Shown: positions 14,998 to 48,100 of the stretch, piece by piece
Layout of the letters: the number at the start of each line of letters is the position of its first letter
How positions within the stretch are numbered: position 1 is the first letter of the stretch
DNA from: Bolinopsis microptera
Taxonomy: Eukaryota; Ctenophora; Tentaculata; Lobata; Bolinopsidae
Assembly (NCBI RefSeq): GCF_026151205.1
Contig: NC_087084.1
Location: forward strand, 1,712,312 to 1,776,311
Reading direction: 5' to 3'
DNA: 64,000 nucleotides
The notes under the pieces: generated by a model
What the model was told of the DNA's origin: nothing
Database searches by the model: none
What the model saw: the letters and a program-made list of their open reading frames with translations, nothing else
Made by a program: the position numbers and the translations under genes

Positions 14998-17900
14998 CTG
15001 GAGGGGAGGGGTCACGTGTTAGTTTAGTAAGAGTAAGCAACTTAGTTTCTATCTTCAGTTTAATCAGAGTAGATGTAACACTGTGACACTGTTGTTACCA
15101 TAGCTACACTACTAGTTACCATAGCTACACTACTAGTTACCATAGTTACACTACTAGTTACCATAGTTACACTACTAGTGTAGATATAACAAGCTTCTTA
15201 TCACTGTCTCTACTTCTCTACTATCTCTTCAACAAGAGATATTTGGCAGAATCTACAATGAAGTTTTTTTTTTCTACAGTGAAGTTTGACATTGAGGTTT
15301 ATAATTTTAGGGAAAGATTATAATTGGGTTGTGTTTAATTATCCCTGGTTTATAACTTGTATTTGATAATATCTGGCCACTAGGCTGTATTTGATAATAT
15401 CTGGCCACTAGGCTGTATTTGATAATATCTGGCCACTAGGCTGGTTTACTCACCACATCTCTCAGGTAGGTCACCTGACCAGAGTCCGTCTTCTTGACAC
15501 TTTGTGATCCACCCTCCTTTCAGATTAGGACACTTCACCTGACAGTGGAATAGGGGGTTGGCTGGGGAACCACTTATATATAATTATACATAATTATACA
15601 TAATTAACCACTTATATATAACTGTTATCTTCATTTCCTACTCTCTAAATGCAGAGAACTCTACAGACTGTAATCTGTGTGCAGACTGTAATCACTACAG
15701 TACACGGATACGGGTACATTTCCCATTCCTAAGCAAACTAATAACAAGCAAACCTCTACAATATCCTGGAAACTGTGACCAGTGCTCGAGTGGATCCGGC
15801 CTCCCTCGGGTACTCTGAAGTTCTGCGTGCAGTTCAGTCCTGAAAACATCAACCTGGTTACCTATAATTCTCAGAGGACTGTTACTCAAAAGTGATAATA
15901 GCATTACGAAGTACTAAGTATTTATTGGCTGAAAGTACTGAACTAAATAAGTACCAAAGTACTGAACTAAATATTAAATAACTAATAAGATTTAAGTTTA
16001 TTTGACGGCTGAAAGTACTGAACTAAATAAGACACGTACGTTTACAAAGAGGCTCGTCTCCACTCCAGACCCCCGAAGCAAGACAGTGCCTAGTAGCTTC
16101 ACCCACCACCTCGTAACCAGGGTAACATACGTACTCTACAAATGATTCGTACGAGTTGGAGTCCGTAGAGACTATGTATCCGTTAGTGGGTTGATTTAAC
16201 CGGGGGCATTCGTCACCTGGAGTAATATAGTGTTAGTAAAGTGTTAGTAAAGTGTTAGTTAAGTGTTAGTAAAGTGTTAGTGAAGTGTTAGTAAAGTGTT
16301 AGTAAAGTGTTAGTAAAGTATTAGTAAAGTGTTAGTAAAGTGTTAGTAAAGTGTTAGTAAAGTGTTAGTAAAGTGTTAGTAAAGTGTTAGTAAAGTGTTA
16401 GTAAAGTGTTAATAAAGTGTTAGTAAAGTGTTAGAGTAATGGTGGTGATACTGATAGTGATAGTCCTTCTCTTTCAATTAGGCTGCGCATTTCAGATTAT
16501 TTTTTCTATATTGAGGTAACAAATGATCAAGTTGATTGAAATGCCAATATATAAGATTTACAATAAAAGTTTCAACTTACAGACACAGTAGGGAGGCGCA
16601 TAGTCCCACTCTCCCTTGTGAGTGCACGTGATGGTCTTGGCCCCCCTCATCTGATAGCCGTCCTGGCACTTGTAACTCACAGTGTCTTGGTACTCGAAAC
16701 TGTCGCCCTCTCTCATTCCCCAGTCAGGTACACCTGTTAATGTAACACTTCTTTATAGTTTATGACTTAATTAATTAATTAATACAGTTATTTAGATACC
16801 ACATTTTTCAATTAATTATGTTATTTCGAGCCCGCCGCAAGATTTACTAATTTAAGATTTATTCACTAATACTATTACTTATAATACCAAAAGCCGCGCT
16901 CGCACTTATAAACTAACCAGGATCCCCGCAGTTATAATACTAAAAGCCGCGCTCAAGCTTTACTTATCAACTAACCAGGATCCCCGCAGACTTGTTTACT
17001 ACAAGTTGGCTCCACACCCTGCCACTGTCCCTTAACACAGAGCAAGTAACTATCCCCACTTTGTTGGTACCCCTTGTTGCACGAGAACTCCAGGTAGTTA
17101 GACCTGAGGGAGGGTTATCTGTTATCTGATTTCAAACACAAGGATTTATTTTTACCAGAACTCCAAGTAGTTCGACCTGAGGAGTGAGGGAGGGATATCG
17201 GGAGCAGGACTATTGAGCGGTGGACTGTTGAGCGTAGGACTGTAGGTCGGTGAAGGTCGGAAGTAGGACTGTAGAGCGGTGTCAAATCGCCAGGGTAGGA
17301 CTCTAGAGCGGCCGCCCTTATAGATCTCACAACATGAGGACTTTAGAGCGGTACGATCCTAAAATGAGGACTGTAGAGCGGTGGACTGTTGAGCGGTGGA
17401 CTGTAGGCCGGTGAAGGTCGGAAGTAGGACTGTAGAGCGGCCCTCCCTTATAGATCCCATAACATGAGGACTCTAGAGCGGTACCCTCCTATAACATGAG
17501 GACTCTATAGCGGTTGAAAATTTGAAGATTGAACACTCAACGAAGCTAAGTTATACATTGTAACTCGTGATTGATTATGGTCATGACATTCTAGGATGAT
17601 AACTTTATTAAAGAGTCATGGAGTTAATGAACATTTTCATTTACTTATTATAAATATTTCATTACTAATATTATAGTGTAACTTAATTTAAGATTATTGG
17701 TCGGTCTCAACGTCTTCCAAATGATTGAAATATTCCCCTGCTACTCAAAAATGTAAAACGTGTTTTCGGTATTTACCTACAATATGAGCGCTTAGCTCCA
17801 ATCAGAAGCGGAGATATTTTGAAATAAGTGTGATAATTGTTGCTTGCGAGGTCCTGCTAATATAGTAAAATCGGATTTTTGGCGATTTCTCAAAAACTAA

Positions 17901-23900: not shown

Positions 23901-26900
23901 CCTTGTGGCTCCAAATTCAAATCTAAACTATTGACAAAGTTCTTTCTCGCACCTGATAATATAGTAGTCTCCGTTTTTAATGTCCAGCTCATAAGCCGAA
24001 CAAGGGTTAGGTTGGCAGGTGGGTGGAGAGCCGGACCACTTTCCATTCTCCTGACAAGTAAGACTAGTGGGTCCGGTGAGAGTGTAGCCGGAGTAACACT
24101 GGAACGTTCTCGTGCTGCCGCAGTAGCCTGAGTAGCTGTTGTCGCTGTAGTTACCGTTACTGAGGAGAGAGACAGTTAGCTGCAGTAGTAGTGACGTCAT
24201 CAGGAGTAGTGACGTCACCAGGAGTAGTGACGTCACCAGGAGTAGTGACGTCACCAGGAGTAGTGACGTCACCAGGAGTAGTGACGTCACCAGGAGTAGT
24301 GACGTCACCAGGAGTAGTGACGTCACCAGGAGTAGTGACGTCACCAGGAGTAGTGACGTCATCAGGAGTAGTGACGTCACCAGGAGTAGTGACGTCACCA
24401 GGAGTAGTGACGTCACCAGGAGTAGTGACGTCATCAGGTTAGCTGCAAGGCGAACAACTTGTTTGATTTTGGCATCATGATTATAAAACATCTAATATGA
24501 AATATAGAACAAACATGTGACATGCACGGTGCACCTGAACTTGATGATATCACACTTAATGAGCTTGCAGTAAGGTAGCTCCTCTGACCATGTCCCATCT
24601 GCTTGGCAGGTGTGGTCCGAGGATCCTGGACTAACTCCGTTATATGGAGTATGCATCTCGTAGCAACTGAGGGAGTTACAGTGGTTTTATTAAGAATATT
24701 ATATTGTTGACTTTTTGAAAATAGTTACCCTCGCACAAGATTATTTTCAATTTTCTTGTTGTGTTCCACAACTCTGTGTTAAAAGTATCACCAGGATTAC
24801 TTCAGGAATACTTCATGAATAACTCACCTATCACACTTGACTCTCACCCGATCCCCATAACACTGAGTATCATCCAGCTCTTCTACCTGCGAGGATTTAA
24901 AATTACAAGCTTATCACAAAACAGTATATCCACCACGTGACACAAACCAACCAATCAGATCACAGTATTAGTACCACGTGACACAAACCAACCAATCAGA
25001 CCACAGTATTCACACCACGTGGCACAAACCAACCAATCAGAGCACAGTATTAGTACCACGTGACACAAACCAACCAATCAGAGCACAGTATTTACACCAC
25101 GTGACACAAACCAACCAATCAGAGCACAGTATTCACACCACGTGACACAAACTAACCAATCAGAGCACAGTATTAAGACCACGTGACACAAATCAACCAA
25201 TCAGAACACAGTATTCACCCCACTTAACACAAACTAACCAATCAGAGCACAGTATTTACCCCACTTGACACAAACTAACCAATCAGAGCACAGTATTCAC
25301 ACCACGTGACACAAACCAACCAATCAGACCACAGTATTTACACCACGTGACACAAACCAACCAATCAGAGCACAGTATTTACACCACGTAACACAAACCA
25401 ACCAATCAGAGCACAGTATTCACACCACGTGACACAAACCAACCAATCAGAGCACAGTATTCACACCACGTGACACAAGGAACTAACACAGGGTTACCCA
25501 CCTGTCCATTGAGGAGGAGTTGTCTCCGAGGGCAGCACTTCTTCTGGCACTGTGGTACTTCACTATTCCACTGAGAATTGCTTTGACAGAACAGGGACTT
25601 CACTCTCCCTCTTACCTGGTAACCTTCGTCACATTGAACTTCCTGAGAGCAAGTAGTTACAACGCTGGATCTAACTATGTATAATCTAAGAACAATTCTA
25701 CGCTCCATCAAATCGATTCCTCTAAAAGTCAAATCATCGAGATATATAAATGTTCAAAATTAAATGAAATTAAAATGAAAAGTCAAAACCTCAGCTACAT
25801 ATCAAAATATAAACCCTACCAAATGTTGACTGCAGTCAAATTCAGAAAGTGTGTAGCAAGTTCGTTCCAATCTGGGTCCGTAGCAAACTTTGTTACGGAT
25901 TGGAATGAGTTTACTGTTGGGGCCTGCTGTTACTTTAGGACATTGTATCCTGTTACACGTGGGAAGCTCTGTTGGTTCCCACAAGCCAGACGGGTTCCGC
26001 TTGTCGCTGAAAAGTTTGTTTTACTGTGCTCTGATTGGTTAGTTTGTGTCACGTGGTGTGAATACTGTGCTCTGATTGGTTAGTTTGTGTGTTTGCGGAT
26101 GGGTTCCGCTTGTCGCTGAAAATTTTAACTGTTTCATGATTTGTGGTGTAGGTTAAGTGTTTTAGTGAGTGAGTTTTTTTAAGCAATGAGCATATTTTCA
26201 ATCAAAACCACGATTTAAAAACTACCGAAAGAAGCCACTATTCCCCTAAAAAAGCGAGTATTCCCCAAACTACTAACTTATCAGTGCAGGTAAAAGTAAG
26301 CTCCTCCTTTGCCTGGTGACAATAATCACAGTCGTAAGTAACACTGCTCATATACACATACTCCTCCTCCTCCTCTAATACAGGGGAGTACTTGCCGTTC
26401 TGGACTTCTCGGGGGGTGTTGCAGGTCTTTACCTGTAAAAGGAGGGAGTGAGGGAGTGAGGGAGTGAGGGAGTGAGGGAGTGAGGGAGTGAGGGAGTGAG
26501 GGAGTGAGGGGAGTGAGGGAGTGAGGGGAGTGAGGGAGTGAGGGGAGTGAGGGAGTGAAGGAGTGAGGGAGTGAAGGAGTGAGGGAGTGAGGGAGTGAAG
26601 GAGTGAGGGAGTGAGGGAGTGAGGGAGTGAGGGAGTGAGGGAGTGAAGGAGTGAGGGAGTGAAGGAGTGAGGGAGTGAAGGAGTGAGGGAGTGAGGGAGT
26701 GAGGGAGTGAGGGAGTGAGGGAGTGAAGGAGTGAGGGAGTGAAGGAGTGAGGGAGTGAAGGAGTGAGGGAGTGAAGGAGTGAGGGAGTGAGGGAGTGAGG
26801 GAGTGAGGGAGTGAGGGAGTGAGGGAGTGAGGGAGTGAGGGAGTGAGGAAGTGAGGGAGTGAGGGAGTGAGGGAGTGAGGGAGTGAGGGAGTGAGGGAGT

Positions 26901-29900
26901 GAGGGAGTGAGGGAGTGAGGGAGTGAGGGAGTGAGGGAGTGAGGGAGTGAGGGAGTGAGGGAGTGAGGGAGTGAGGGAGTGAGGGAGTGAGGGAGTGAGG
27001 GAGTGAGGGAGTGAGGGAGTGAGGGAGTGAGGGAGTGAGGGAGTGAGGGAGTGAGGGAGTGAGGGAGTGAGGGAGTGAGGGAGTGAGGGAGTGAGGGAGT
27101 GAGGGAGTGAGGGAGTGAGGGAGTGAGGGAGTGAGGGAGTGAGGGAGTGAGGGAGTGAGGGAGTGAGGGAGTGAGGGAGTGAGGGAGTGAGGGAGTGAGG
27201 GAGTGAGGGAGTGAGGGAGTGAGGGAGTGAGGGAGTGAGGGAGTGAGGGAGTGAGGGAGTGAGGGACTGAGGGAGTGAGGGAGTGAGGGAGTGAGGGAGT
27301 GAGGGAGTGAGGGAGTGAGGGAGTGAGGGAGTGAGGGAGTGAGGGAGTGAGGGAGTGAGGGAGTGAGGGAGTGAGGGAGTGAGGGAGTGAGGGAGTGAGG
27401 GAGTGAGGGAGTGAGGGAGTGAGGGAGTGAGGGAGTGAGGGAGTGAGGGAGTGAGGGAGTGAGGGAGTGAGGGAGTGAGGGAGTGAGGGAGTGAGGGAGT
27501 GAGGGAGTGAGGGAGTGAGGGAGTGAGGGAGTGAGGGAGTGAGGGAGTGAGGGAGTGAGGGAGTGAGGGAGTGAGGGAGTGAGGGAGTGAGGGAGTGAGG
27601 GAGTGAGGGAGTGAGGGAGTGAGGGAGTGAGGGAGTGAGGGAGTGAGGGAGTGAGGGAGTGAGGGAGTGAGGGAGTGAGGGAGTGAGGGAGTGAGGGAGT
27701 GAGGGAGTGAGGGAGTGAGGGAGTGAGGGAGTGAGGGAGTGAGGGAGTGAGGGAGTGAGGGAGTGAGGGAGTGAGTGAGGGAGTGAGGGAGTGAGGGAGT
27801 GAGGGAGTGAGGGAGTGAGGGAGTGAGGGAGTGAGGGAGTGAGGGAGTGAGGGAGTGAGGGAGTGGGGGAGTGGGGGAGTGAGGGAGTGAGGGAGTGAGG
27901 GAGTGAGTATTTACACCACGTGACCCCTCACCTGACACTGGAAGTCCTCTCCGTCCCAGGTCTGATCGGTACCACAGCCCCTCACACTGTCCCCACTTGA
28001 GTGGAAGTAACCTGCGTAAGTTATTATTAAATAAGATTTAGTTGCTGACACAGCTTCGATTCAGCTGACGTGCGATATGAAATCAATATGAAACCCCGAA
28101 ATAAACGAGTTATACACTACTGCCACTTATACCCTTGCTATTTTTTATCTTACCTTCGTTACAAGTATATTCAATGTGGTCACCACAGTGAAACTCAGTG
28201 GAGTTAATGTCTGCATTTCCTGGAATCTCTGGTTTCCCACAGTACTTTCTCTGACAGACAGGCTCACTCCCGTTCCAGTTACCATGCTCCTCACAGGCTA
28301 GGATGTGGTACCTGGGGTACACAGAGCTGGTCTTCAAGATGGCAGGATCAGTCATAGAGTTAGGGAACTTGTAGCAGGAGTTACAGGAGAAGGTGACTAC
28401 AGTCCCGTAGTGGTGGTCTGGGGTGGAGAGGTACCCCTCATCTGGTGCTTGCAGCTGAGTGCAGTTCCGGATCCTACAGACTGCTTCCGAGCCAGACCAC
28501 TCTTTGGTGTTGCTGCATGTTCTGGTGAGGTCACCAGTTACCAGCTCGTAGCCGGTGTTACACTCAAACTGTGTAGCTTGGTTACACCCCGTGTTGCTGA
28601 TTACCACGTGGGCGTGTTCTGGCAGTTCCAGAGGTTCACATACCTTGGGGAGACAGGTGGGGAACTTGCCTTGCCAGGACCCCTTGGTGCAGTCAGTGGG
28701 GTGGGTTCCCTTGCACTCCACCTCAGCACAGTTGCAGTCTCCAGGATCCTCCATCTCGTAGCACTCATCACACTCGTATCTGATAAGCCGGCCACACTGG
28801 TAATCACTCCCATCTGTCACGAACGAGGCGTGGTCGAATTCTTGCGGAGGTTCACACTTCTTAACATTGACTACAGGTTCCTGAGTCTTCCACTCCCACT
28901 CCCTAGCCATGTTGCAGCGGACAGCAGTGTCCCTAGAGTCACCCTCTCTACACTTATCAGTGTAGAAACACTCCTCGCACTCCAACTGGCGAGTGCTACC
29001 ACAGGTGATGTGTTCCCCGGGAAAGGAGCACTGAGTGTCCACAAAGGGGAGCTCACTGCACTCTTTTAGAGAACAGGTTGGGATGTTAGCAGACCACTGT
29101 TTGTTGGGGAGACAGGTGTGGGTCAGCTCCCCATCCAGTGCTTCGTAACATTCCTTACACTCCAGCTCCACCTCCTTCCCGCACAGCACAGCAGACTCCA
29201 TTGAGGTGTCTGTGTATCTAATGTGTTGAGAGGGGTCAGGGGTTCTAGCTGGACAGGACTTCCTGGAGCACACCTCGTCCTGGTTAGTCCAGGTCCCTGG
29301 GTGCTGACACTCTCTTCGTGGTGCTGTCTCGTAGTGCTCCTCTCCACTGGGGAAAATAGGGAGTTAAACAAGTGAACACTTCAACAGGGTGATAAATATA
29401 ATATCATAGTATTGAAACGTTAATCATAGGGTCCAAGTTCAGAATCGAAATCTGTCCAGTATCCATTATCCAACTGCAAAGTTTTGTCAACTAATATATA
29501 ACTAACTACTACTACTATGTCAGAACTAAGTGTAAGCAAAAGTGTGATATTCCATCAAGATGAGTTACCTGTTATACTCATAGCACTCCTGGCACGCAAC
29601 ATCCACCCTCTGACACACGTGATCCCCTCCGCAAACTTCCCGCTGTTCCTCGTCCCCTACACTTGTGTAATTGTAAGTCATGATCACCACATCGTAGGTG
29701 GGGTCCCCACTTCTTATCTCCGATATAGCGGGGCAGCACACCGGCACACACTCGGGCTGGTCCCCATCAAACTGCCATTCCTCGTCCACTGTACACCTGG
29801 CTGAGGCTGCTCCACTCAACTTGAAACAGGAGGGGCAGGAGAACTGGATAGTGGAGCCGCAGGAGAAGGAGGGACCGTGGGAGACTAGAGGGTCGGATAG

Positions 29901-32900
29901 CATTGGGGGGAGGCACTCCAGGACTGAAATATTTATTGTTAGCCGCAGGAGAAGGAGGGACCGTGGGAGACTAGAGGGTCGGATAACAATGGGAGGAGGC
30001 ACTCCAGGACTGAAATATTTATTGTTGGCACACATTTGGGTTTAGATGTTGATTGCTACCACGTCAACTGTTTTTGTTTCTCTGGTTAATTTATATATTT
30101 GTATCATTTTAGACACCTGGATGTTTACAGGCTTACAGGGGTTTACAGGAATGTCTAGAGATCTCACAAGAACTGCCTATAATCTAAACTTACTGAAGCA
30201 AGTAGGAGGATCAGCAGGGAACCAAGATGTTTCGTTAGTCCCACTAACTGGCTTACAGGATCTCTCTGAACTTCCGTCCAACTCCCAGCATCTGGGAGTT
30301 TAGTAATCAATAACTACAGATTATTGGAATGAACTACCGTCCAACTCCCAGCATCTGAGAGTTTAGTTATCAATAACTACAGATTATTGGAATGAACTAC
30401 CGTCCAACTCCCAGCATCTGAGAGTTTAGTAATCAATAACTACAGGTTATTGGAATGAACTACCGTCCAACTCCCAGCATCTGGGAGTTTAGTAATCAAT
30501 AACTACAGGTTATTGGAATGAACTACCGTCCAACTCCCAGCATCTGAGAGTTTAGTAATCAATAACTACAGGTTATTGGAATGAACTACCGTCCAACTCC
30601 CAGCATCTGAGAGTTTAGTAATCAATAACTACTGGTTATTGGAATGAACTACCGTCCAACTCCCAGCATCTGAGAGTTTAGTAATCAATAACTACTGGTT
30701 ATTGGAATGAACTACCGTCCAACTCCCAGCATCTGAGAGTTTAGTAATCAATAACTACAGATTATTGGAATGAACTACCGTCCAACTCCCAGCATCTGAG
30801 AGTTTAGTAATCAATAACTACAGATTATTGGAATGAACTACCGTCCAACTCCCAGCATCTGGGAGTTTAGTAATCAATAACTACAGATTATTGGAATGAA
30901 CTACCGTCCAACTCCCAGCACCTGAGAGTTTAGTAATCAATAACTACAGGTTATTGGAATGAACTACCGTCCAACTCCCAGCATCTGAGAGTTTAGTAAT
31001 CAATAACTACAGATTATTGGAATGAACTACCGTCCAACTCCCAGCATCTGGGAGTTTAGTAATCAATAACTACAGGTTATTGGAATGAACTACCGTCCAA
31101 CTCCCAGCATCTGAGAGTTTAGTAATCAATAACTACAGATTATTGGAATGAACTACCGTCCAACTCCCAGCATCTGAGAGTTTAGTAATCAATAACTACA
31201 GGTTATTGGAATGAACTACCGTCCAACTCCCAGCATCTGAGAGTTTAGTAATCAATAACTACAGGTTATTGGAATGAACTACCGTCCAACTCCCAGCATC
31301 TGAGAGTTTAGTAATCAATAACTACAGATTATTGGAATGAACTACCGTCCAACTCCCAGCATCTGAGAGTTTAGTAATCAATAAGTACAGGTTATTGGAA
31401 TGAACTACCGTCCAACTCCCAGCATCTGGGAGTTTAGTAATCAATAACTACAGGTTATTGGAATGAACTACCGTCCAACTCCCAGCATCTGAGAGTTTAG
31501 TAATCAATAACTACAGAGTATTGGAATGAACTACCGTCCAACTCCCAGCATCTGAGAGTTTAGTAATCAATAACTACAGATTATCTGAACTACCGTCCAA
31601 CTCCCAGCATCTGAGAGTTTAGTAATCAATAACTACAGATTATTGGAATGAACTACCGTCCAACTCCCAGCATCTGAGAGTTTAGTAATCAATAACTACA
31701 GATTATTGGAATGAACTACCGTCCAACTCCCAGCATCTGAGAGTTTAGTAATCAATAACTACAGATTATTGGAATGAACTACCGTCCAACTCCCAGCATC
31801 TGAGAGTTTAGTAATCAATAACTACAGATTATTGGAATGAACTACCGTCCAACTCCCAGCATCTGAGAGTTTAGTAATCAATAACTACAGATTATTGGAA
31901 TGAACTACCGTCCAACTCCCAGCATCTGAGAGTTTAGTAATCAATAACTACAGATTATTGGAATGAACTACCGTCCAACTCCCAGCATCTGAGAGTTTAG
32001 TAATCAATAACTACAGGTTATTGGAATGAACTACCGTCCAACTCCCAGCATCTGAGAGTTTAGTAATCAATAACTACAGGTTATTGGAATGAACTACCGT
32101 CCAACTCCCAGCATCTGAGAGTTTAGTAATCAATAACTACAGGTTATTGGAATGAACTACCGTCCAACTCCCAGCATCTGGGAGTTTAGTAATCAATAAC
32201 TACAGGTTATTGGAATGAACTACCGTCCAACTCCCAGCATCTGAGAGTTTAGTAATCAATAACTACAGATTATTGGAATGAACTACCGTCCAACTCCCAG
32301 CATCTGAGAGTTTAGTAATCAATAACTACAGGTTATTGGAATGAACTACCGTCCAACTCCCAGCATCTGAGAGTTTAGTAATCAGTAACTACAGATTATT
32401 GGAATGAACTACCGTCCAACTCCCAGCATCTGAGAGTTTAGTAATCAATAACTACAGATTATTGGAATGAACTACCGTCCAACTCACAGCATCTGAGAGT
32501 TTAGTAATCAATAACTACAGGTTATTGGAATGAACTACCGTCCAACTCCCAGCATCTGAGAGTTTAGTAATCAATAACTACAGATTATTGGAATGAACTA
32601 CCGTCCAACTCCCAGCATCTGAGAGTTTAGTAATCAATAACTACAGATTATTGGAATGAACTACCGTCCAACTCCCAGCATCTGAGAGTTTAGTAATCAA
32701 TAACTACAGATTATTGGAATGAACTACCGTCCAACTCCCAGCATCTGAGAGTTTAGTAATCAATAACTACAGATTATTGGAATGAACTACCGTCCAACTC
32801 CCAGCATCTGAGAGTTTAGTAATCAATAACTACAGATTATTGGAATGAACTACCGTCCAACTCCCAGCATCTGAGAGTTTAGTAATCAATAACTACAGGT

Positions 32901-35900
32901 TATTGGAATGAACTACCGTCCAACTCCCAGCATCTGAGAGTTTAGTAATCAATAACTACAGGTTATTGGAATGAACTACCGTCCAACTCCCAGCATCTGA
33001 GAGTTTAGTAATCAATAACTACAGATTATTGGAATGAGCTACCGTCCAACTCCCAGCATCTGAGAGTTTAGTAATCAATAACTACAGGTTATTGGAATGA
33101 ACTACCGTCCAACTCCCAGCATCTGAGAGTTTAGTAATCAATAACTACAGATTATTGGAATGAACTACCGTCCAACTCCCAGCATCTGAGAGTTTAGTAA
33201 TCAATAACTACAGGTTATTGGAATGAACTACCGTCCAACTCCCAGCATCTGAGAGTTTAGTAATCAATAACTACAGGTTATTGGAATGAACTACCGTCCA
33301 ACTCCCAGCATCTGAGAGTTTAGTAATCAATAACTACAGATTATTGGAATGAACTACCGTCCAACTCCCAGCATCTGAGAGTTTAGTAATCAATAACTAC
33401 AGATTATTGGAATGAACCGTCCAACTCCCAGCATCTGGGAGTTTAGTAATCAATAACTACAGATTATTGGAATGAACCGTCCAACTCCCAGCATCTGAGA
33501 GTTTAGTAATCAATAACTACAGATTATTGGAATGAACTACCGTCCAACTCCCAGCATCTGAGAGTTTAGTAATCAATAACTACAGATTATTGGAATGAAC
33601 TACCGTCCAACTCCCAGCATCTGAGAGTTTAGTAATCAATAACTACAGATTATTGGAATGAACTACCGTCCAACTCCCAGCATCTGAGAGTTTAGTAATC
33701 AATAACTACAGATTATTGGAATGAACTACCGTCCAACTCCCAACATCTGAGAGTTTAGTAATCAATAACTACAGATTATTGGAATGAACTACCGTCCAAC
33801 TCCCAGCATCTGAGAGTTTAGTAATCAATAACTACAGATTATTGGAATGAACTACCGTCCAACTCCCAGCATCTGAGAGTTTAGTAATCAATAACTACAG
33901 GTTATTGGAATGAAAAGGTTACTTGTACTCCCAGCATCTGAGAGTTTAGTAATCAATAACTACAGATTATTGGAATGAACTACCGTCCAACTCCCAGCAT
34001 CTGAGAGTGTTGTAATAAATAACTACAGGTTATTGGAATGAACTACCGTCCATCTCCCAGCATCTGAGAGTTTAGTAATCAATAACTACAGATTATTGGA
34101 ATGAGCTACCGTCCAACTCCCAGCATCTGAGAGTTTAGTAATCAGTAACTACAGATTATTGGAATGAACTACCGTCCAACTCCCAGCATCTGAGAGTTTA
34201 GTAATCAATAACTACAGATTATTGGAATGAACTACCGTCCAACTCCCAGCATCTGAGAGTTTAGTTATCAATAACTACAGATTATTGGAATGAACTACCG
34301 TCCAACTCCCAGCATCTGAGAGTTTAGTAATCAATAACTACAGATTATTAGAATGAACTACCGTCCAACTCCCAGCATCTGAGAGTTTAGTAATCAATAA
34401 CTACAGATTATTGGAATGAACTACCGTCCAACTCCCAGCATCTGAGAGTTTAGTTATCAATAACTACAGATTATTAGAATGAACTACCGTCCAACTCCCA
34501 GCATCTGAGAGTTTAGTAATCAATAACTACAGATTATTGGAATGAACTACCGTCCAACTCCCAGCATCTGAGAGTTTAGTAATCAATAACTACAGATTAT
34601 TGGAATGAACTACCGTCCAACTCCCAGCATCTGAGAGTTTAGTAATCAATAACTACAGATTATTGGAATGAATTACCGTCCAACTCCCAGCATCTGGGGG
34701 TTTAGTAATCAATAACTACAGGTTATTGGAATGAATTACCGTCCAACTCCCAGCATCTGAGAGTTTAGTTATCAATAACTACAGGTTATTGGAATGAATT
34801 ACCGTCCAACTCCCAGCATCTGAGAGTTTAGTAATCAATAACTACAGATTATTGGAATGAACTACCGTCCAACTCCCAGCATCTGAGAGTTTAGTAATCA
34901 ATAACTACAGATTATTGGAATGAACTACCGTCCAACTCCCAGCATCTGAGAGTTTAGTAATCAATAACTACAGATTATTGGAATGAACTACCGTCCAACT
35001 CCCAGCATCTGAGAGTTTAGTAATCAATAACTACAGATTATTGGAATGAACTACCGTCCAACTCCCAGCATCTGAGAGTTTAGTAATCAATAACTACAGG
35101 TTATTGGAATGAACTACCGTCCAACTCCCAGCATCTGAGAGTTTAGTAATCAATAACTACAGATTATTGGAATGAATTACCGTCCAACTCCCAGCATCTG
35201 AGAGTTTAGTAATCAATAACTACAGGTTATTGGAATGAACTACCGTCCAACTCCCAGCATCTGAGAGTTTAGTAATCAATAACTACAGATTATTGGAATG
35301 AACTACCGTCCAACTCCCAGCATCTGAGAGTTTAGTAATCAATAACTACAGATTATTGGAATGAATTACCGTCCAACTCCCAGCATCTGAGAGTTTAGTA
35401 ATCAGTAACTACAGGTTATTGGAATGAATTACCGTCCAACTCCCAGCATCTGAGAGTTTAGTAATCAGTAACTACAGGTTATTGGAATGAACTACCGTCC
35501 AACTCCCAGCATCTGAGAGTTTAGTAATCAATAACTACAGATTATTGGAATGAATTACCGTCCAACTCCCAGCACCTGGGAGTTTAGTAAATTTTAATAT
35601 AGTCAAATTCCACTTATATTTGTTAATATTAGTATTATTATTATGGGGAGGGACGAGTTATTTTATTAATGTTTTTATGTTTTTATTATCTTGACAGTTG
35701 CTGTTGTAACTCAAGATTTGAAATTTGTATTCCTTGTATTCCTTGTATTCCTTGTATATCTTGTAGTAATCAATAACTACAGATTATTGGAATGAACGGG
35801 TTACTTGTAATATGTGGACAATTATACTGCTCAACAGCTTTATCACTTTATTGAAATGATGGAAACGCCAGATCTTACCACTTCTGAACAATATAACCTA

Positions 35901-38900
35901 CAGCAGGCTACGTGCCTGACCTACAGGCCCAACTTTTCACCCCCAAAATAACCCCTCAAAAGTACATCACCTCCAAAAGTTACAAAAACAACTACTTACT
36001 CGTCATCACAAGAATATTGTATCGGTTCCTTGCAGGAGTAGATCTCTCTTACTGGGTTCAGAACTAAATGGTCTGTTAGCTCCTCTGGTTTATTGCACAA
36101 CTTCACTGTTGTGGAGAATGTGGTTAGTAATCAGAAGTCTGTGGTTTAGATTCGGAACAAGTTGGAATGCTGAATTGGATATTTGTAAATGTTGTTATTC
36201 ATTAAGGTAAAATATTTATTGATTTGTGATCTGATTCTCACAGATGGGGCAATATTCGCGAGTAAGAAACTCAGAGAGCTACAATATTTCCTTTCATTTA
36301 CTTTGGTAGTAAATACAGTATATATTTATATATTTATTATATGATATATATTATACTTTATTAATATATAGTAAATATAGGCAGAGGTATTGCACAAGTT
36401 TACCAAAGAGCTATACATATATCCTAACAAAATATTTCCTTGTGTTTGACTTACGCTCGCATACAGGAGCAATAGTCCAGGTCTTATCTTCCTTGCACTG
36501 CACAGTCTTGTTACCCTTGAGGTTGTAGCATTGATCACACTCGTATTCGACCGGGTCGCCACACTTGTACGTCTTCACAGCCTGGGCCTGAAGGAAGGTG
36601 AGTTTGGTATTCTGTGTTTGTAACACGACATCTGTCCGACAGCACTATTTTCTTGTGTTTGATGTGATATCTCAAAATTGGCACATAGAAACTCGCTCAA
36701 ACTTACACAGATTATCCGTTCTATAACCACCATATTTAATGGAAAGTTTCAAGAAAATCGTACGGTAGGATCCGACATAAACTATTGTCCGAATAACCTA
36801 TTTTGGTATCCTGTGTTTGAATTGGTTGCTTACTTTATAACGGCACCATAATTTGATACCTTTGGTAACTTAATTTCTCTTATAACACTTCGACTTTTCT
36901 TCTGCTATAAAATCATACCTTTGTTGAACCATGCTAAGTTTTTAATGTAATTTGGAAGTTGACAAAATTAAAAAATTACTTTAAGATCAGAAAATATTAA
37001 ATATATGAGAATCACTTACCGCACTAAATTTAGACATAATCCCATCAATCTCCTCCACAATAAACGACAAATCCTCTCCATATCCTAGTCCAAAGTTCTC
37101 TGTAACATTAACCAGTTTGGGATAGCTGGGATGCTCGCACTGCTTGATGCCACACCCGGGCACCTCCCTCTCCCACCCCACCTCTCCTGCTGCATTCTCA
37201 GTGCAGTGGATATCAACTGCTTCCAGCTCAAAGCAAGGATCACATTTAACCGTGATATATTCACCACAGTTGTAGGAATCCTTATCAGGAGCTATCTCTG
37301 TGTTGCCAGGAACAGCTGGTTTCTGGCAGGTTTTGATAGAGCAGATTGGTTCAGGCTCACTCCAGCCCCCTCCATGCAGACACTCCGCACTGTTGGAGCC
37401 TGAGGTCCTCTGGTAGCACGTGTTGCAGGTGTACGTGACCTGGTCTCCACACAGATTGTAGTTGCTGTTAGATATCTGACCATTCTCTGGGTCCCCCCTC
37501 TTCTCACATTCGTACAGAGTACACTTGGGTACTGGTTTAGACCAGGACCTGGGGAGAATCAAGTTAGACTACAACCCGGGGAGTGGAGAAGCATCGTGTT
37601 GGACATTTTATGGGATAACGGGTCTTTACAAACAAGTGAAAACAAATTTTAGATACAGTATTATTCAGAACATTGCTGGTACTACACATGTTCGTCATTC
37701 CCCCTACATTCCCCCTACATATCCCCTACATTCCCCCTACATTCCCCCTACATTCCCCCTACATTCCCCCTACATTCCCCCTACATTTCCCCTACATTCC
37801 CCCTACATTCCCCCTACATTCCCCCTACATTCCCCCTACATTCCCCCTACATACCTATCATGGAGACACTGAGCGGACTCATCCCCCTCCAGATAATAAC
37901 ATTTGTCACACGCGTAGTTTACTACAGCACCACATTGTTGGGAGTCTACTGTCCCGGCTCCGTTTCTAGGTTGTCCTGGTGCTGGACACTCCTTTCCTGG
38001 GTGAGGTGCAGGTTAGAGTGATGATATCAAGTCTCCGTAGTGATTGAGCCTCTAGGATGAGGCCGGGCGGGGTTCCTTATACTCCTATAGCAGATGGTAG
38101 CAAAGAGACTTACACTAAAATGTTGTCAGTAAGACTCACAACTGATTCCTCATGAAACGAAGCTAGAAGATATTGTAAGATAAGAGATAACACGTGACTT
38201 ACTGACACACGCGGGCACCTCAGCTGACCAGGTCTTATCTGACTGACACCTCACCTCCTCCTCACCCTGCAGTTCGTGACACTCCTCACACGAGAACTTG
38301 ATGCTTGACCCACATGTTGTCTCCAGGGAGGTCATCATACCGTTTTCTGGCGCTTCTAGTGCTGGACACTGTTTTACTAGATAGAACCGATGTTAGAACT
38401 TATAGTGAATATGACTTATGATGACTTAGGATGACTTAGGATTAAAATGTAAAAGCAATTACCTCTTAGATATTAAGTTACAGTTGCTTGTTGGTTACAA
38501 GATTGCAGTTTGGTTGTGAGGATCACGGTACAATAGAATTACCAAAGAGTCAAGGGGACTATTTCTAGTATAGAAACCCTGTAAACTCAATTAAACACTA
38601 ACTTTTGCAGGAGTAAGATTGTCCGTCCCACTTAGCCTTACTCTGCCAGGGGTTGTAGTCATCAGGTTTATTTGGCTGGCATCTGTGGGTTTCACTTCCT
38701 GATATGGTTCATTGTTTCACTAAAACAACTATAAGTCTGGTATGTAAAAAAAGTAAATGATTAACATTCCTTCTATTCACTTTTACAATTGGTCCATTAA
38801 GTGTTTCACTAAAACAGCCATAAGTCTGGTATGTAAAAACGATGTGAAAGTAATTTGACCTTGTAATTAACATTCCTTGACCCTTGTATTCACTTTTACA

Positions 38901-41900
38901 ATCTGAGCCAAATTAAACCAAAGCAACTCCTAACCTGCATCGTATTCATAACAGTCGTCCTTGCACTGGAAAGTAACGGAATCTCCACAATCATACACTG
39001 ATTTAGACGGCTTGTAAATGGCATTAGATTGGGTATCATCATTCTCCGGCTTCCGGCAACTCCTTATTTGGCAGAGAGGTCTCTCTTGTCCCCAAGTTCC
39101 GTCGGGTAAGCAAGTTCTTTTGTCTGGTCCACAAAGATAGTAGCAATCCTCACAAACCTGACGTTACGGTTTTATATAAATTGAAATTTGACGCTATTTA
39201 TCACAACCGAGAAGAGGAAATAATACATGGTTGAAACATTTTGGATATATGCACTTTCGTTAAGACTTTGTCACTATATCGAATTTTGATAAAATGCTTC
39301 AATTACATATACTTCAATTACATTATTATTCGCCCAATTTAACAGATTTGTCTAGTACTTACATCTTGATCTAGTGGTGTTAATTCAAATGATTAAGATA
39401 TAGAAGGATAATTTAAAATCAATTTTATAATAATAACAAAAAATGATTTATATTATTATTATTATAATAAAAATAATTTAAGATAAAATTATTAAGTTAA
39501 ATCAAGCTTACAACGTCAACTTGAGACCCACACTCAGTAGGACTGTTAGATCCTGTGTCAGTTATCCAAATCTTCTTGTACTCGTCCTCCGCGCTACTCA
39601 GCTTGTCTGAAATGTGCATACTTTCATTTTGAATTTCAGTTTCACTTCTCTTTCACTTTCACATTCACTTTCACTTTCACTTTCGTTTTAATTTTAATTC
39701 AACTCCCAGTTTTATAAACTCACACTGATAGAATCCTTGTCCAGCAATATGGTTTGTTGTGAGCTCGGGGCAAGTTCGAACTGAAGGAAAAACCTATGTT
39801 AAAGAACATTCTTGAAAAGTGGTCTTAACAGGTTAAACGTATATTATTAAATGTAAAATTATTAAAATTATTAAATTTAAAATTGCAAGATTACAAAACA
39901 AGACTCACTAATAACAAAACTCGTTGTTACCAACAAGACTTACTGTTACAAGAAGGACGCTCGGAGTCCCAGTCAATAGAATTGTCATCATCCACCCTAC
40001 ACGTACTAGAAGGAGACCCCTCTAGATCATAACACTCGTCTCCTGCAGGATCGTTCTCTCTAAAAGGAGGGGATACGTTTAGTGGGGGGTTAGGGGGCTG
40101 GGGGGTTACAGTTAGGTGGGGGGATACGTTTAGTGGGGGGTTACAGTTAGTGGGGGGGTTACAGTTAGTGGGGGGGGGTTACAGTCAGTGGGGGGTTACA
40201 GTTAGTGGGGGGGGGGGGTTACAGTTAGTGGGGGGTTACAGTTAGTGGGGGGGGGTTACGTTTAGTGGGGGGGGGGGTTACAGTTAGGGGGTGGGGGATA
40301 CGTTTAGTGGGGGTTACAGTTAGGGGGTGGGGGGTTCGAAGTACAGTTAGGGGGGTTCGAAGTACAGTTAGTGGGGGGGGGGGAGTTCGAAGTACAGTTA
40401 GGGGGTTCAACGTTTAGTTAGTGGGGGGAGGGTTCGAAGTACAGTTAGGGGGGTGGGGGGTTCGAAGTACAGTTAGGGGGTTCAACGTTTAGTTAGTGGG
40501 GGGGGAGTTCGAAGTACAGTTAGTGGGGGAGGGGTTACAGTTGGGGGGGTGGGGGGTTCGAAGTACAGTTAGGGGGGTCCAACGTTTAGTTAGTGGGGGG
40601 AGTTCGAAGTACAGTTATTGGGGAGAGGTTCGAAGTATAAATTAAATTAAAGATTTTGTTGAATAAACCATAGAGATAAACATTAGAGCATTGTAATTTT
40701 GTTCACTGATACTTTATTGTATCATTGCAACTTACCGTGTTTTGCACTGATACTCTATGGTATCATTGCAAGCAGTTCGCACATTCTTTATCTCTAGTGG
40801 ATACTCCAGGGTAGGGCTCTTAGGGGTGATCACAGTATCTGAGTCTACATCTAGGAGAGTCAGTCCAGCGAGCATCCTCCTCACAGGTCACATGTGACCC
40901 ATCCTCAGGGTACATGTCGTAGCAGATATCACACTCGAACTCCACTGAGTCACCACACTCTAGTCCCTGCAGGGTGTATTGTTTCATCAGATATAATCTT
41001 TATAGTAATAGTCTTACTACCATTATTCGATTCAGTAAGATCCAGCCAATCATTTTATACCAGATCTTATCGGTTTTAAGTTCTTGCTATCATTTTCGAG
41101 AACAAATCTTCCACTTAAACCACTTTTGTTACCTGAATGTAGTTCAAAAAAGGAGCATGACATGACTTACATGTGGGACAGGGGACCTGATCCAAGAAAG
41201 TGGGTATTTTTTATTCTTATCGTCATCTATATCGGGCAGTGTCGGCTCCGGACAAGTTATTACTGAAAAGTATATGTTTATCAGACATTTGATACTATGC
41301 AGTGACTCAGTGAGCATTTTGGTGATTGTCAAAAGCTATAACTTGCTACAAAAAGATTCGTTTTGTCTTACTTTTGCAGGCGTCCACCCCCTCAGTCCAC
41401 CCTGCATCGTTCACTTTGTCTCCGTTACCTGGTCTACACTGGATCACCTGAATTACCATTATGTAATAGTGGGAACCTGGTAAGCAGTTTAGAGTAAAAA
41501 GTGAAAGTGAAAGGTACTTTCTCTCTCGTCACACGAAAGTTATTTTTATTATTTCTGTTTTCGATGGCAGAGCATTAAGTCAACAATCACATTCTAGTTC
41601 CAACCACAAAATCCACCAGATCACAGCCAAATCATTGCCAGTACAGGAACTGACCTGAGGTTCCGGGTTGATCTCGTGGCAGGTGGTGCAGGTGACTGTG
41701 ACCTTTTCCCCACAGTTACTATGGTTACTACACTGGTTACTATGGTTACTACACAGACGAGGAACTCACCTGAGGTTCCGGGTTGATCTCGTGGCAGGTA
41801 GTGCAGGTGACAGTGACCTTCTCCTCACAGTTGTACCACTCCTTGTCTGGAGAGATGATTGTTTGGTCGTTAGGAACAGCCGGTCTCTTACAAGTCTTTT

Positions 41901-42100
41901 CCTGGGGGAGTCAGGTCAGTCAGCTGTTTCAAGCAATATACTGATACAATTATAAACAAGTTTATTTTTTACGCTTCATGTAATATTTTGTTATTTTTTA
42001 AACTAAATTGTAACAATAAAACTTAACGTTAATCATAAGCTCTCTCTGTACCTGACAGGCAGGAACTGATCTGTCCCACATCAGATCGAAAATGAAAGAG

Positions 42101-42161
<61 letters not shown>

Positions 42162-45100
42162 AATTGAAATTGAAAGTGAAAGTGAAAGTGAAAGTGAAAG
42201 TATATGTACCTGACAGGCAGGAACTGATCTGTCCCACATCATGTCCTCGTTTCTAGGAGCAGTGCAGGTCTGAGTGTCCTGTTGGGGGACGAAGTAGCAG
42301 CAGTCCTGGGGGCTGTAGGTCACGCTCTCCAGGTAGTCGAATACAGTCCGCCCTATAGATAGGTGGTCAAATTAGGGGGTTTAAGTGTACTTCTTATCTA
42401 CTTGAATCACAACCCCTCATTGTCATGACAACTATTGTCATGGGATATAAAAGAGTGGAACTTCAACCTCTATAGCCGATCTGGAGCACTAAGATTAATC
42501 CTCATCGATATTAATCCTCACCGTTAGCATTGTCCACACAGTATTGGTGTGTCTCCTCTTTCTCACACTTGGGATCACTACAGAAACTGCAACCATCCCT
42601 GTTCCTCTCGAAGTTTCCAAGGTATGAGTTCTGACAGCAGACCTCACTGAGATTCGGTGAGGAGTTACCCCCATCTTTCTCCTGACAGCAGCACTTGGAG
42701 ACTTCTCTGATACAAGCCTGGGTTTCTTTGTAAACATTTACTCCTCTCAGACAGTCGTTGGAGGCTCCTGAGAGACAAAGAGATTAGCTGATTACTGAGA
42801 TACGTTTCAATTCACGTTACTATGCGAGCATCATAAATTGCATGACGCATTAAGAGTACCGACTCCCTATCCTTTATTTGATCTGTTGGTAACCCTAGAT
42901 ATTCGAACAAAGTATAGACCCTGGAATTTTTTGAAGCAAGGGAAAATGAAAGCAAAAGTTAAAGTATCACTATATACCCTGGAACTGTTTGGAGCAGTAG
43001 TCCTGCGCGTCCTGCTGACACTGGCTATCCTCACACTCACACCCCTTCTCCACACACTGTGTACACTCCTCATCCTCAGGGTGGGTGCTCCACTCCTTGT
43101 GGTACTGAGTGTTGTACGAGGTTAGCTCGCTTCCGTCCGGGAGTTTGTAGTCGTTTGTACCTGAGAGGGAGAGGATGTGAAGGGATCAGTTATAGTTATT
43201 ACACCAAATGGTCCTAAAATAAAAGATGAAACAGAAAGTGCGATACTGTCCACCCGGATTCCAAAAAAATACTGTGATACCAGTGTGATAGAAAACTTAC
43301 CGTCATTATCGTAGAACCCACACAGGCCCCCAGTACTCCCGCTGTATTTAGAAAACTTGACCAGTGTCACTGTCAACCTGCTCGTCCCATCAAATGTTAC
43401 CTGACGATAAAACATGATTAAAAGATTAAAGAGGTTATAAAATTATAATGTTGTAGTCCTGCAGTGAGGGTATATTAGAGGAAACTGTTTTGAGTGATAT
43501 GATGATGATGCAGATTTCAATGAACTTACCTTATCGGATTTTGTTCGGGCGGACATTGCGTGAACGGACATAATATTGGGTGGTCATAATTATGGACACA
43601 AAAATATCTTTGACCGTACATACTAACCCGACTTAAATTTGGGTGGACATTACGTGGACGCTGACCCCTCCAGTGCTCACGTAATTTCCGACCAAACAAA
43701 GTTTGATAAGTTAGTACTGGTTACTATGGTTACTACACTGGTTACTATGGTTACTACACTGGTTAATATGGTTACTACACTGGTTACTATGGTTACTACA
43801 CTGGTTAATATGGTTACTACACTGGTTACTATGGTTACTACACTGGTTACTACACTGGTTACTACACTGGTTACTATGGTTACTACACTGGTTACTACAC
43901 TGGTTACTAAGGTGGTAAGAAAGAATAACTATTAACTAACGGAGATCTCCTCCTCGCATCCCTTCTTCACACTGGTTACTATGGTTACTACACTGGTTAC
44001 TATGGTTACTACACTGGTTACTATGGTTACTACACTGGTCACTATGGTTACTACACTGGTTACTAAGGTAATAAGAAAGAATAACTAACGGAGATCTCCT
44101 CCTCGCCTCCCCTCTTTAGGGATATAACAACGAGCGGCTCCCTTGGTTCCGTGTCCTGTAGCACGTGTTTAATAGACATGTCAGCACTATCGTGATCTAT
44201 CTCTGCGGATTTAGTGTTCTGTTAAGTTAAGTTGTTACCTAATCTGTAACCTCTTTCAAAATTCTAAAAAATATTCAGATACGAAAAAGATACAAAAAAT
44301 AAATAAATAAAAAATAAGCTAACCATCTCTGATCATCTTGTGGCTGTTGACAATAACGACTGGCTCGGGCAGCAAAGTGACAATGTTATCTTGCCATTTG
44401 ATTCTGTACGCTCCCAAAGTGCACTTATGATAGTATCCTGAGTAGGGGAACTTTGTTATTCTCGTTCTGTTGAAAATCATACAATTTATATATAAATTGT
44501 ATATATTATATTAAATCATACTCACAGTGTAGTAATTAGTTCTGTCGACTGTGGATTGTCAAATGTAAAGATCACAAATAACATACCAAGATCGCAACCA
44601 AACTATAAGCAACTGCACCAGCATAGAATAATGAACCTACTGTACCTTCAATACTGACATCATTATCCTCTGACTTGAAGAGATGGAAGCCACACTTTTC
44701 TACCTTTTGTTGGAATAGGGGCACATTGTTGCCATCAAATGTGGTTACTTTGGAGTTGTTACAGGCAGAGGTGTAGGACACACAAGTGGGGGGTGTTTCG
44801 TTCTTGTAGTCTGGCGGGGTTATTACACTGGTTACTATGGTTACTGCACTGGTTACTATGGTTACTACACTGGTTACTACACTAATAGGTGTAACAAAAA
44901 ACACCCAGAATCCCGAATATGTTAAACCTTTAAACGTTAATGTACACTAGAGACTTACAGCCGCAGGCGTGATAGAGCAGCTTGCGAGGAGTTTGCGCCT
45001 TGAGAGTAGTCAGTCTGAACTCTCCATTGTCAGTAGGGAGAGTCAGGGGCACTATTGTAGCGCCGTTAACTAACATTGACTTCTGCACTTCCAGGTCCAC

Positions 45101-48100
45101 CCTGGTCAGACTATGGTTACTACACTGGTTACTATTGTTACTACACTAGTTACTAAGGTTGTACTATTGTAGCACCGTTAACTAACATTGACTTCTGCAC
45201 TTCTAGGTTCACCCTGGTCAGACAGTATGTTGTTAATGATAATTAACAATGAAAAAGCCTCCCTACGTTGAAAAAGCCAGAACTCCCAATTGAAACGTCA
45301 CCGTTCTCAGGAGATGAACTATCTACAGCTCTCAAGCAGACAAAGGACACGTACGGTCATGACGGAATTCCTTCTCTGCTGTACAAGTGTGTTGACTTGG
45401 ACACTACTTTACTATCTCTGTTCAACAACATGCTAGCTACTGGTAAAGCCCCGGAAGAGCTTCTTGTCACTGCCATTCTTCCTATACCCAAAGGAGCTAA
45501 AAAGTTCTGTCCTGAAAATAGCAGAGGCATCTCCATCCTCCCTGTTGCCACGAAAATCTACAACAGGCTGCTTCTAAACCGAATCAGGAGCCACATAGAA
45601 CCTCGCCTCCGATACAACCAGAATGGTTTCCGGCCTGGAAGAGGGACTCGTGAACAGATTCTGGCTCTTAGACGTATCATCGAAGAGGTTGTGAACTTCC
45701 AGCTTCCTTGTGTCATCTCCTTTATTGACTTCTCAAAGGCCTTTGACTGCATCTTCAGATCGCATCTTCCCGACATCCTGGCTTCTTACGGCTTTCCTAA
45801 AAAAATCATAAAAGCCATTATGTCACTCTACATCAACACCAAGGCTAAAATCATGACCCCTGAAGGTATAACCTTAGAATTCCTTACCAACCTCGGAATT
45901 CTCCAGGGCGATGTTCTTGCACCTCTCATTTTTATCATCGTCCTGGATTTCATACTAAGACTAGCAATAGGGCCACGTGATGGGTTTAAAGTTGGAAGTA
46001 ACTACATTGCTGATTTGGACTTCGCCGATGACCTAGCAACAATTACTGACAGCTTCAGCGAAAATGGCCGCCTTTGCCAAAGCATTTCTGACATAGCAGC
46101 CCGTTATGGTCTCCTTATTAACATCGGAAAGACCAAATACATGTCCTATAACATCCCGCGACCTGTCAACTCAGACGATAGAGTCTTTATTAACGGCAAC
46201 CCTTTAGAAGAAGTTCGTGACTTTAAGTACCTAGGATCCTTTATAGCCTCAACAAGCAGAGACATCAATGTCAGGAAAGGCCTCGCATGGAAAGCTTTAC
46301 AGAGTCTAGATGCTTTTTGGAAATCTAATATGTCCAGGAAGATCAAGACTAAGATTTTTCGAACTGCAGTAGAACCTGTTCTGCTGTATGGTGCAGAAAC
46401 CTGGACTCTTAAAAAGGCTGATATCAGAGCACTAGACGGTGTTTATACTAGAATGCTACGAAGGGTCTTTGGTATCTCATGGAAATCACATACACCTAAC
46501 TCCGTTCTTTACGGAAAGATTCCATCGGTGACAGATACTATAAAGACACGAAGACTTCGTTTTGCAGGACATGTCTACCGTCTACAGGACCAACCTGCTC
46601 AACAACTCCTTTTCTGGCAACCATCCTATGGCCAGCGTTATCGAGGACGACCACATAAGACCTTCCCGGACGTCCTACTTGAAGACACTGGAATGGAACC
46701 TGACCAGCTGCGTTTACTCATGTGTGATAGGGATAAATGGAGAGAAGCGTTGACACGAAACTCGTTCCAGATTTCATCTGGATCGATCTAGGCAGGACGT
46801 TGAGCAGGTGCATATTTCAAAATTTTGACGTTAAAAGTTTGACGTTAAAAAATGTTGACGTTAAAATTAAATAAATATTAAAACTAAGTACTTGCTGTTT
46901 TGCCTAAGACTCTCAGCTATAACTCCAGCAGCCAGGGCAGCAGCACACAGTGAACCACTGCATGAGGATTTAGCTGTGGTGTCTGTGAAACCTGTGGGGT
47001 TAGTTTGTGTCACGTGGTGTGGGTACTCAGGTCTGATTGGTTAGTTTGTGCCACGTGGTGCGAATACTGTGTTTTGATTGGTTTGTTCTACGAGAATGAA
47101 ATCCTTTTTTTCTTCAGATGAAATGTCTAAATAAAAACCTGCAGCTGGAATATCAGCTCCGGGGGCGAATAGGTCCACACACTCCCCAATGTTAGAGACT
47201 GTAGCGTCGTTTTCATCTGTAGCTCCCACTGTAACTACCCCATTTAGTGCTGTTCCTCCCTGGGCACAAAACTTACGTAAATGAAAGTACACTGGTTACT
47301 ATGGTTACTACACTGGTTACTATAATGGTTACTATAAAGTGTACCTGAGCGGAGGCGGGGTTGGAACTGGTTACTATGGTTACTACACTGGTTACTATGG
47401 TTACTATATAGTGTACCTGAGCGGAGGCGGGGGTGGAACTGGTTACTATGGTTACTACACTGGTTACTATGGTTACTATATAGTGTACCTGAGCGGAGGT
47501 GGGGTGGAACTGGTTACTATGGTTACTACACTGGTTACTATGGTTACTATATAGTGTACCTGAGCGGAGGCGGGGGTGGAACTGGTTACTATGGTTACTA
47601 CATTGGTTACTATGGTTACTATATAGTGTACCTGAGCGGAGGCGGGGGTGGAACTAGTTACTATGGTTACTACACTGGTTACTATGGTTACTATAAAGTG
47701 TACCTGAGCGGATGTGGGGGTGGAACTGGTTACTATGGTTACTACACTGGTTACTATGGTTACTATATAGTGTACCTGAGCGGAGGCGGGGGTGGAATGA
47801 CAAGAGTCCAGATCCTCATCGTCACCAGCTCCAGCGACCACTAACACTCCAGAGTTAGAGCCGTAGTTCAGCTCAGTCAGGCTCACTGGGAGGGAGGAGG
47901 GTAAATACTTATATATAATTATAGAGGATAACATTTTAAGCATAACTGGTGGAGTAGTAGCGCATTTGATGAATTAATTAGATTAGGATTTTAGGTTTAA
48001 TTTAATTAAGTAAATTAAGTAAATTAGGTTCTCACCTATCTTAGAGTTGATGTCTTTATGAACCCGGTGAATGGTAAAGCCAGCTAGCACCACAGAACGC

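Follow-up and report, generated by a model that had tools for sequence, protein, structure and literature searches.

In a 64,000-nucleotide (nt) stretch of the genome of the ctenophore Bolinopsis microptera (contig C13, NC_087084.1, positions 1712312 to 1776311; hereafter the window), an intron of a sushi (CCP) domain gene is filled almost entirely by a 63-bp satellite that repeats the intron's 3' splice site, together with the start of the following exon, 85 times. The explanation that we consider probable is that a tandem duplication at a 5-bp microhomology, running from the intron's last 43 nt through 25 nt of the next exon, expanded to 85 copies through slippage or unequal exchange, with every exon edge except the last turned into intron. 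The spliceosome would keep to the last acceptor by exon definition, this being the sole one with a full-size exon and a strong donor behind it; behind each upstream copy would lie a pseudo-exon of about 17 to 20 nt with a mostly poor donor. The array belongs to a class that recurs in this genome, that of minisatellites seeded across exon-intron junctions, which would be tolerated because splicing can still proceed from a single functional copy. The sequence itself shows the array, its junction, the reading frames, the single genomic place among the listed matches, and the recurrence; acceptor use, exon definition, and near-neutrality are inferred.

The array occupies positions 30267 to 35590 on the minus strand, where Tandem Repeats Finder reports a period of 63, 84.6 copies, and 97% matches. 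Splitting the sequence on the acceptor yields 85 copies, in each of which 43 nt up to the AG are followed by 20 to 25 nt of exon start; all 85 tandem units at this exon edge hold the splice-site consensus along with a piece of the exon, and the CAG is intact in 85 of 85. An initial annotation, made from the sequence alone, had proposed that one splice acceptor was amplified some 85-fold and that only the final copy leads into a real exon, and both claims are borne out: the last copy passes directly into the exon at 30291 to 30194, and the other 84 lead to stops. Its account of about 25 bases of homology into the exon, ended by an A/T change, was likewise accurate, the unit and the exon agreeing over 25 nt save for a single position (GGAAGTTCA vs GGTAGTTCA). 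The genome assembly comprises 264.65 Mb in 232 contigs, with C1 to C13 measuring 15 to 26 Mb each and totaling about 258 Mb. In a search of it that skips common words, all 40 matches listed for the 63-bp unit fell within this single intron; copies at unrelated loci, the mark of a dispersed satellite or transposable element, were not among them, in agreement with the earlier description.

The exons around the array, all on the minus strand, join into a single open frame (36105-36000 + 30291-30194 + 29923-29569 + 29346-28154). The upstream exon (106 nt, open throughout, ending ..YSCDDE) has its donor, CGA/GTAAGT (the slash marks the splice site), at 35999. The satellite-bearing intron spans 30292 to 35999 (5708 nt, phase 2), and the real exon behind the last acceptor (30194 to 30291; 98 nt; CWELDGSSERSCKPVSGTNETSWFPADPPTCF) continues the frame, with GA/A encoding Glu ahead of Cys-Trp, as far as the donor TCA/GTAAGT at 30193. 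It is followed by an exon of 355 nt (29569 to 29923), which has a sushi match and the relatives P0001, P0002, and P0004, and by a long exon of 1193 nt (28154 to 29346) with four sushi stretches. Matches to PF00084 at 79.7, 45.2, and 22 bits (Pfam cut-off, 20.7) in the exons flanking the array identify the host as a sushi domain gene; the best such stretch of the third query falls in the 355-nt exon and not in the domain split by the intron. A search of a protein collection (E 0.001) returned five relatives, with 55 to 95% identity, of the two exons downstream of the 98-nt exon. The edges of the 98-nt exon are backed by the four-exon frame, by plausible splice sites, by PF00084 on its neighbors, and by the relatives of the two downstream exons. 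When paralogs of this exon were sought in the genome, its residues were matched only by the window's own copy; the remaining matches (on C13, C1, C4, and C12) were to sushi-like exons from other parts of the query. Between the 355-nt and 1193-nt exons lies an intron (29347 to 29568) that is absent from P0001, P0002, and P0004, whose proteins continue straight across, and P0003 (95% identical) apparently reads intron sequence ahead of the second exon; a recent gain of this intron, or losses of it, are possible.

The structure of the unit points to how the array may have arisen. The pentamer GTTCA is common to the exon (ACGGAAGTTCAGAG), the outer intron flank (CCCGTTCATTCC), and the unit junction (ACGGTAGTTCATTCC), and the duplicated segment spans the intron-exon boundary, the unit holding both 25 nt of exon and the GTTCA junction. 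These features are those expected if the array began as a tandem duplication at this microhomology, accompanied by one A/T substitution, a synonymous one at a Gly codon of the exon. A second junction type, which retains the outer-flank sequence ACAAGTAACC, is present in unit 27. Because the array has the appearance of a tandem duplication at microhomology, the exon probably preceded it. The opposite order, in which the array came first and an exon edge was recruited from it, draws on the near identity of units and exon edge and on the failure of Pfam to recognize the split domain, but we regard it as very unlikely: judged by eye, the neighboring exons require Cys-Trp at the very point where the repeat encodes it, the unit has no place elsewhere in the genome among its 40 listed matches, and the microhomology junction sits within the exon.

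A second event is recorded at the array's outer end. A dispersed element of 172 to 173 bp (35591 to 35763, minus strand), with TTACTA on both flanks, lies inside the first unit, and the outermost part of that unit (35764 to 35797, minus strand; a 100% match at C13:1748075-1748108) is separated by it from the rest of the array. Among the 40 of 227 first-look candidates that were scored, 17 are places elsewhere in the genome at which 140 or more of the 172 queried bases match at 82 to 90% identity, and there are further partial matches. The element came later than the array, splitting its outermost copy.

Variation among the copies bears on the array's age and authenticity. The units differ from one another at 1.2 to 1.5 positions per 63 nt at lags from 1 to 40, so the array is either young or homogenized; homogenization biased toward neighbors was considered and rejected, as mean distance is flat with lag. 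The array might alternatively be an artefact of assembly, long tandem arrays being prone to error. We consider this extremely unlikely, since 29 different 63-nt sequences and two or more junction types occur among the copies, and since another acceptor array of the window, with a 31-bp unit, is present in a different layout at a second place in the genome.

The reading frame limits which acceptor could yield an intact protein. Translation continued from any of the 84 upstream acceptors runs into an in-frame stop 6 to 18 codons on (68 of the 84 read ECWELDGSSFQ and then stop), and skipping the 98-nt exon shifts the frame, which then runs to a stop; an intact protein therefore needs the last acceptor. 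The initial annotation had seen here a genuine problem of acceptor recognition, and so it proves, for the last acceptor is locally no stronger than its competitors: it scores 7.7 on the acceptor matrix, the unit consensus 8.0, and 31 curated acceptors 5.5 to 16.3. A hairpin over the AG (CTCYCAG-ATG-CTGGGAG) is tighter at the real site, with -9.9 kcal/mol against -6.9 for the unit (17-mers). Preference for the last acceptor through local strength or through the hairpin was accordingly rejected. As local features do not distinguish the last acceptor, and the exon body and its GTAAGT donor can, we infer that it is chosen by exon definition.

The branch point is less easily placed. The initial annotation's candidate, TTACTAAAC, fares poorly, its A lying 8 to 9 nt from the AG (-8/-9), whereas 10 of the 31 curated introns have CTRAY at -15 to -21. 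TTGAT, with its A at -16, is probably the better candidate.

If the upstream acceptors were leaky, the array could act as a splicing rheostat, in which their use gives stop-containing mRNAs and the length of the array sets the productive fraction. Early stops behind 84 of 84 upstream acceptors and intact AGs in 85 of 85 copies would suit such a role, which we nonetheless find doubtful. Selection on the units is unsupported: in the 78 of 85 units that are regular and were scored (seven are irregular), variation is seen in 14 of 43 intron columns and in 5 of 20 exon columns. Similar arrays at unrelated exons, together with the duplication of 191 of 491 random non-exon 30-mers in the analysis described below, point instead to a general mutational habit. 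The array itself may be nearly neutral. We give an equally small chance to the broader proposition that this genome repeatedly makes exon-edge splice-site arrays, tolerated via exon definition, and that array length, which is expected to differ between individuals, sets the yield of full-length mRNA as a heritable splicing rheostat coded in copy number.

The initial annotation had further read each unit as a 17-nt microexon with its own donor. That a donor-like motif follows the acceptor is correct for most copies, GGTAGTT lying 17 nt past it in 72 of 85, with GGTAATT in 7, GGTAGCT in 2, and GGTTCAT in 2; the motif is absent from unit 27, and the real exon has GGAAGTT, with no GT, at the same position. 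That the units are spliced as microexons, separated by 46-nt mini-introns and adding variable short peptides, is quite unlikely. Three such microexons would restore the frame, with no stop in the part printed, and a duplication of such a kind in potato yielded a new intron (PMC4974935). However, the pseudo-donor GTAGTT scores 2.6, below the 4.3 to 11.8 of the 19 curated donors on which the matrix itself was built; the intron required is 46 nt long, where 15 curated donor-acceptor pairs have a minimum of 142 nt; and the frame is lost with one microexon or with two.

Several observations weigh against the explanation that we favor. No Pfam family, up to E 1, was matched by the 74 residues surrounding the junction, and none of the 48 candidates for a protein query spanning it qualified as a relative at E 0.001; confidence is weaker for this reason, and the sushi-like Cys-Trp pattern of the 98-nt exon is a judgment by eye. 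Evidence for that exon itself consists of its frame, its splice sites, and its cysteine spacing, the last likewise seen by eye. The T of the unit, where the exon has A, demands a substitution in addition to the duplication. The scoring matrices were built from 31 acceptors and 19 donors that we curated ourselves, the array's own sites included, and the seven copies with GTAATT score 6.0, inside the range of the real donors (4.3 to 11.8). Splicing could be leaky, given the weak last acceptor and its hairpin, and co-transcriptional splicing could meet the first acceptors while the last, some 5.3 kb further on, is still to be transcribed.

The 63-bp array is the largest among several splice-edge arrays in the window. 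A second acceptor array (4668 to 5476, minus strand) has a 31-bp unit in 26.1 copies (TTTACCCTCAG/ATGTAGAT), with 8 nt of exon in each, and runs up to the exon at 4586 to 4675 (minus strand; DVDTGKCSCEEQEKYWFAALLEGCEADLPC); an outlying block (5764 to 6097, minus strand) contains 7.3 copies of the 31-bp unit and 2.7 copies of a 53-bp form with 15 nt of exon. The same 31-bp array occurs in its different layout at C13:1527255-1528577, beside 30 identical exon residues (two of two matches). At 47288 to 47797 (minus strand) it is a donor that is amplified, in seven copies of a 72-bp unit comprising the final 22 nt of an exon and CTCAG/GTACAC; the unit is partly a dispersed repeat. The exon whose end is amplified (47776 to 47885, minus strand), the first copy being the real one, appears subtilase-like, and PF00082 matches across the junction when it is joined to the next exon (24 bits; cut-off, 21.8). 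Adding a third exon in front of this pair left no family match, the exon alone gave E 0.062, and none of the 10 matches listed in a whole-genome search for PF00082 lay in the window. The acceptor of the 355-nt exon at 29923 is doubled by an 86-bp duplication (29855 to 30026, minus strand; two copies), and the copy junction creates a CTAAC at -16 of the second acceptor. Single extra junction copies occur at 41769 and 26006, and arrays of branch-like or pyrimidine sequence stop 9 to 15 nt from the acceptors at 16216, 26432, and 48861.

The class extends beyond the window. Across a random sample of twenty 10-kb pieces of the genome, tandem arrays take up a mean of 20% and a median of about 11% of the sequence, compared with 40% of the window; one piece is 100% tandem array and another 79%. 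These two (L026 and L029) were set aside, and a splice-edge scanner was run on the other 18; in the window it re-finds two of four known cases, one of them through the wrong frame, and also reports two plus-strand hits, both implausible, within a G-rich array at 40135 to 40336. It returned one candidate among the 18 pieces, L030 on C5, in which the last 36 nt of an exon and a TAATAG/GTRCGTG donor recur within a 71-bp unit. All 32 genome matches listed for this exon end lie in two blocks within C5:5025277-5029194, the block inside L030 being the one that was read; one of the matches, a partial one, is at the real exon, which leaves about 31 extra copies. The exon matched no Pfam family and is conserved in four protein relatives at 69 to 97% identity. 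All keep ..SRTTSINR, beyond which P0006 continues YVF much as L030 does, P0007 and P0008 differ, and P0009 ends.

Recurrence of this kind raises the question of whether a mutational process is directed at splice junctions in this genome. A single window contains amplified donor, acceptor, and branch-like sequences, and the donor array in L030 was reached through a random sample. We searched for near copies (a 30-mer with up to 5 mismatches within 7 kb) of 50 curated junctions, comprising 31 acceptors and 19 donors, one further junction of the 51 listed being unplaceable. Near copies were found for 6 of 50 junctions, a figure that is not an unbiased rate because the curated list includes known arrays, compared with 2 of 139 30-mers from exon interiors and 191 of 491 drawn at random outside exons. 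For the junction at 4675 the count is limited to two copies, both of the 53-bp form, as the 31-bp copies diverge inside the 30-mer. Junctions are duplicated less than introns, so nothing shows that splice sites are targeted, and a directed process is unlikely; the junction list, moreover, was compiled with knowledge of some of the arrays. A rate between those of exon and intron fits spill-over of intron duplications, and is as expected if these fall anywhere and those crossing an edge survive provided that a working site remains.

Individual features of the array have precedents. The IFI6 minisatellite supplies several splice donors, of which two downstream repeat units are used (Turri 1995, via PMC4526556), and like the 63-bp array it lies at an exon edge with a splice signal in its units; the array differs in amplifying mainly an acceptor, in 85 copies, whose upstream use would truncate the protein, whereas IFI6 amplifies donors and has known transcripts. 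In a potato RdRp gene, a new intron arose from one tandem duplication over an intron-exon boundary (PMC4974935); there, too, the duplication spans the end of an intron and the start of an exon, and an exon piece of the upstream copy has become intronic, but the 63-bp array has about 85 copies, and a new intron in it would have to make do with a mostly weak pseudo-donor and a spacing of 46 nt. NAGNAG tandem acceptors also present a choice between neighboring acceptors, in their case two sites 3 nt apart (PMC3250501), unlike the array, which repeats whole 3' splice-site modules 63 nt apart. A 7-bp repeat in the 75-bp intron 5 of canine LHX3 affects splicing (PMC3223203); that intron, too, consists in part of tandem repeats, but they repeat no splice sites. 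No amplified acceptor array is named in the titles and abstract openings of the literature searched, which most subscription journals fall outside.

The locus offers a natural experiment in acceptor choice among about 85 near-identical competing modules, the downstream context alone differing, and suggests that tandem duplication can extend introns from their edges with the reading frame kept. Were the class common in this genome, it would provide many replicate donor and acceptor loci at which to test exon definition beyond the usual model animals.

Other repeats occur in the window, several of them beside splice sites. An 11-bp unit (TTACTAACACT; 16229 to 16434, 18.7 copies) is branch-point-like and stops 12 nt short of the acceptor at 16216, which belongs to a sushi-like exon. 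At 26442 to 27907, an intron consists almost entirely of a 1.47-kb (CACTCCCT)n pyrimidine array, which reaches up to the acceptor at 26432. At 42050 to 42260, an exon end (..MWDRSVPACQ) with its GTAC donor is found on either side of an (ACTTTC)19 array. A 41-bp CACGTG repeat (ACAGTATTCACACCACGTGACACAAACCAACCAATCAGAGC) occurs at 24921 to 25478, 46998 to 47087, and 49935 to 50282, one of these starting within a GTAAGT donor. Two 50-bp arrays of one repeat (53310 to 55388 and 56472 to 57493) lie between inverted flanks (..TTAATGCGTTTTCTCAG..) and by eye resemble a foldback or DNA transposon. Finally, a 512-codon plus-strand frame at 45253 to 46788 resembles, again by eye, a LINE-type reverse transcriptase.

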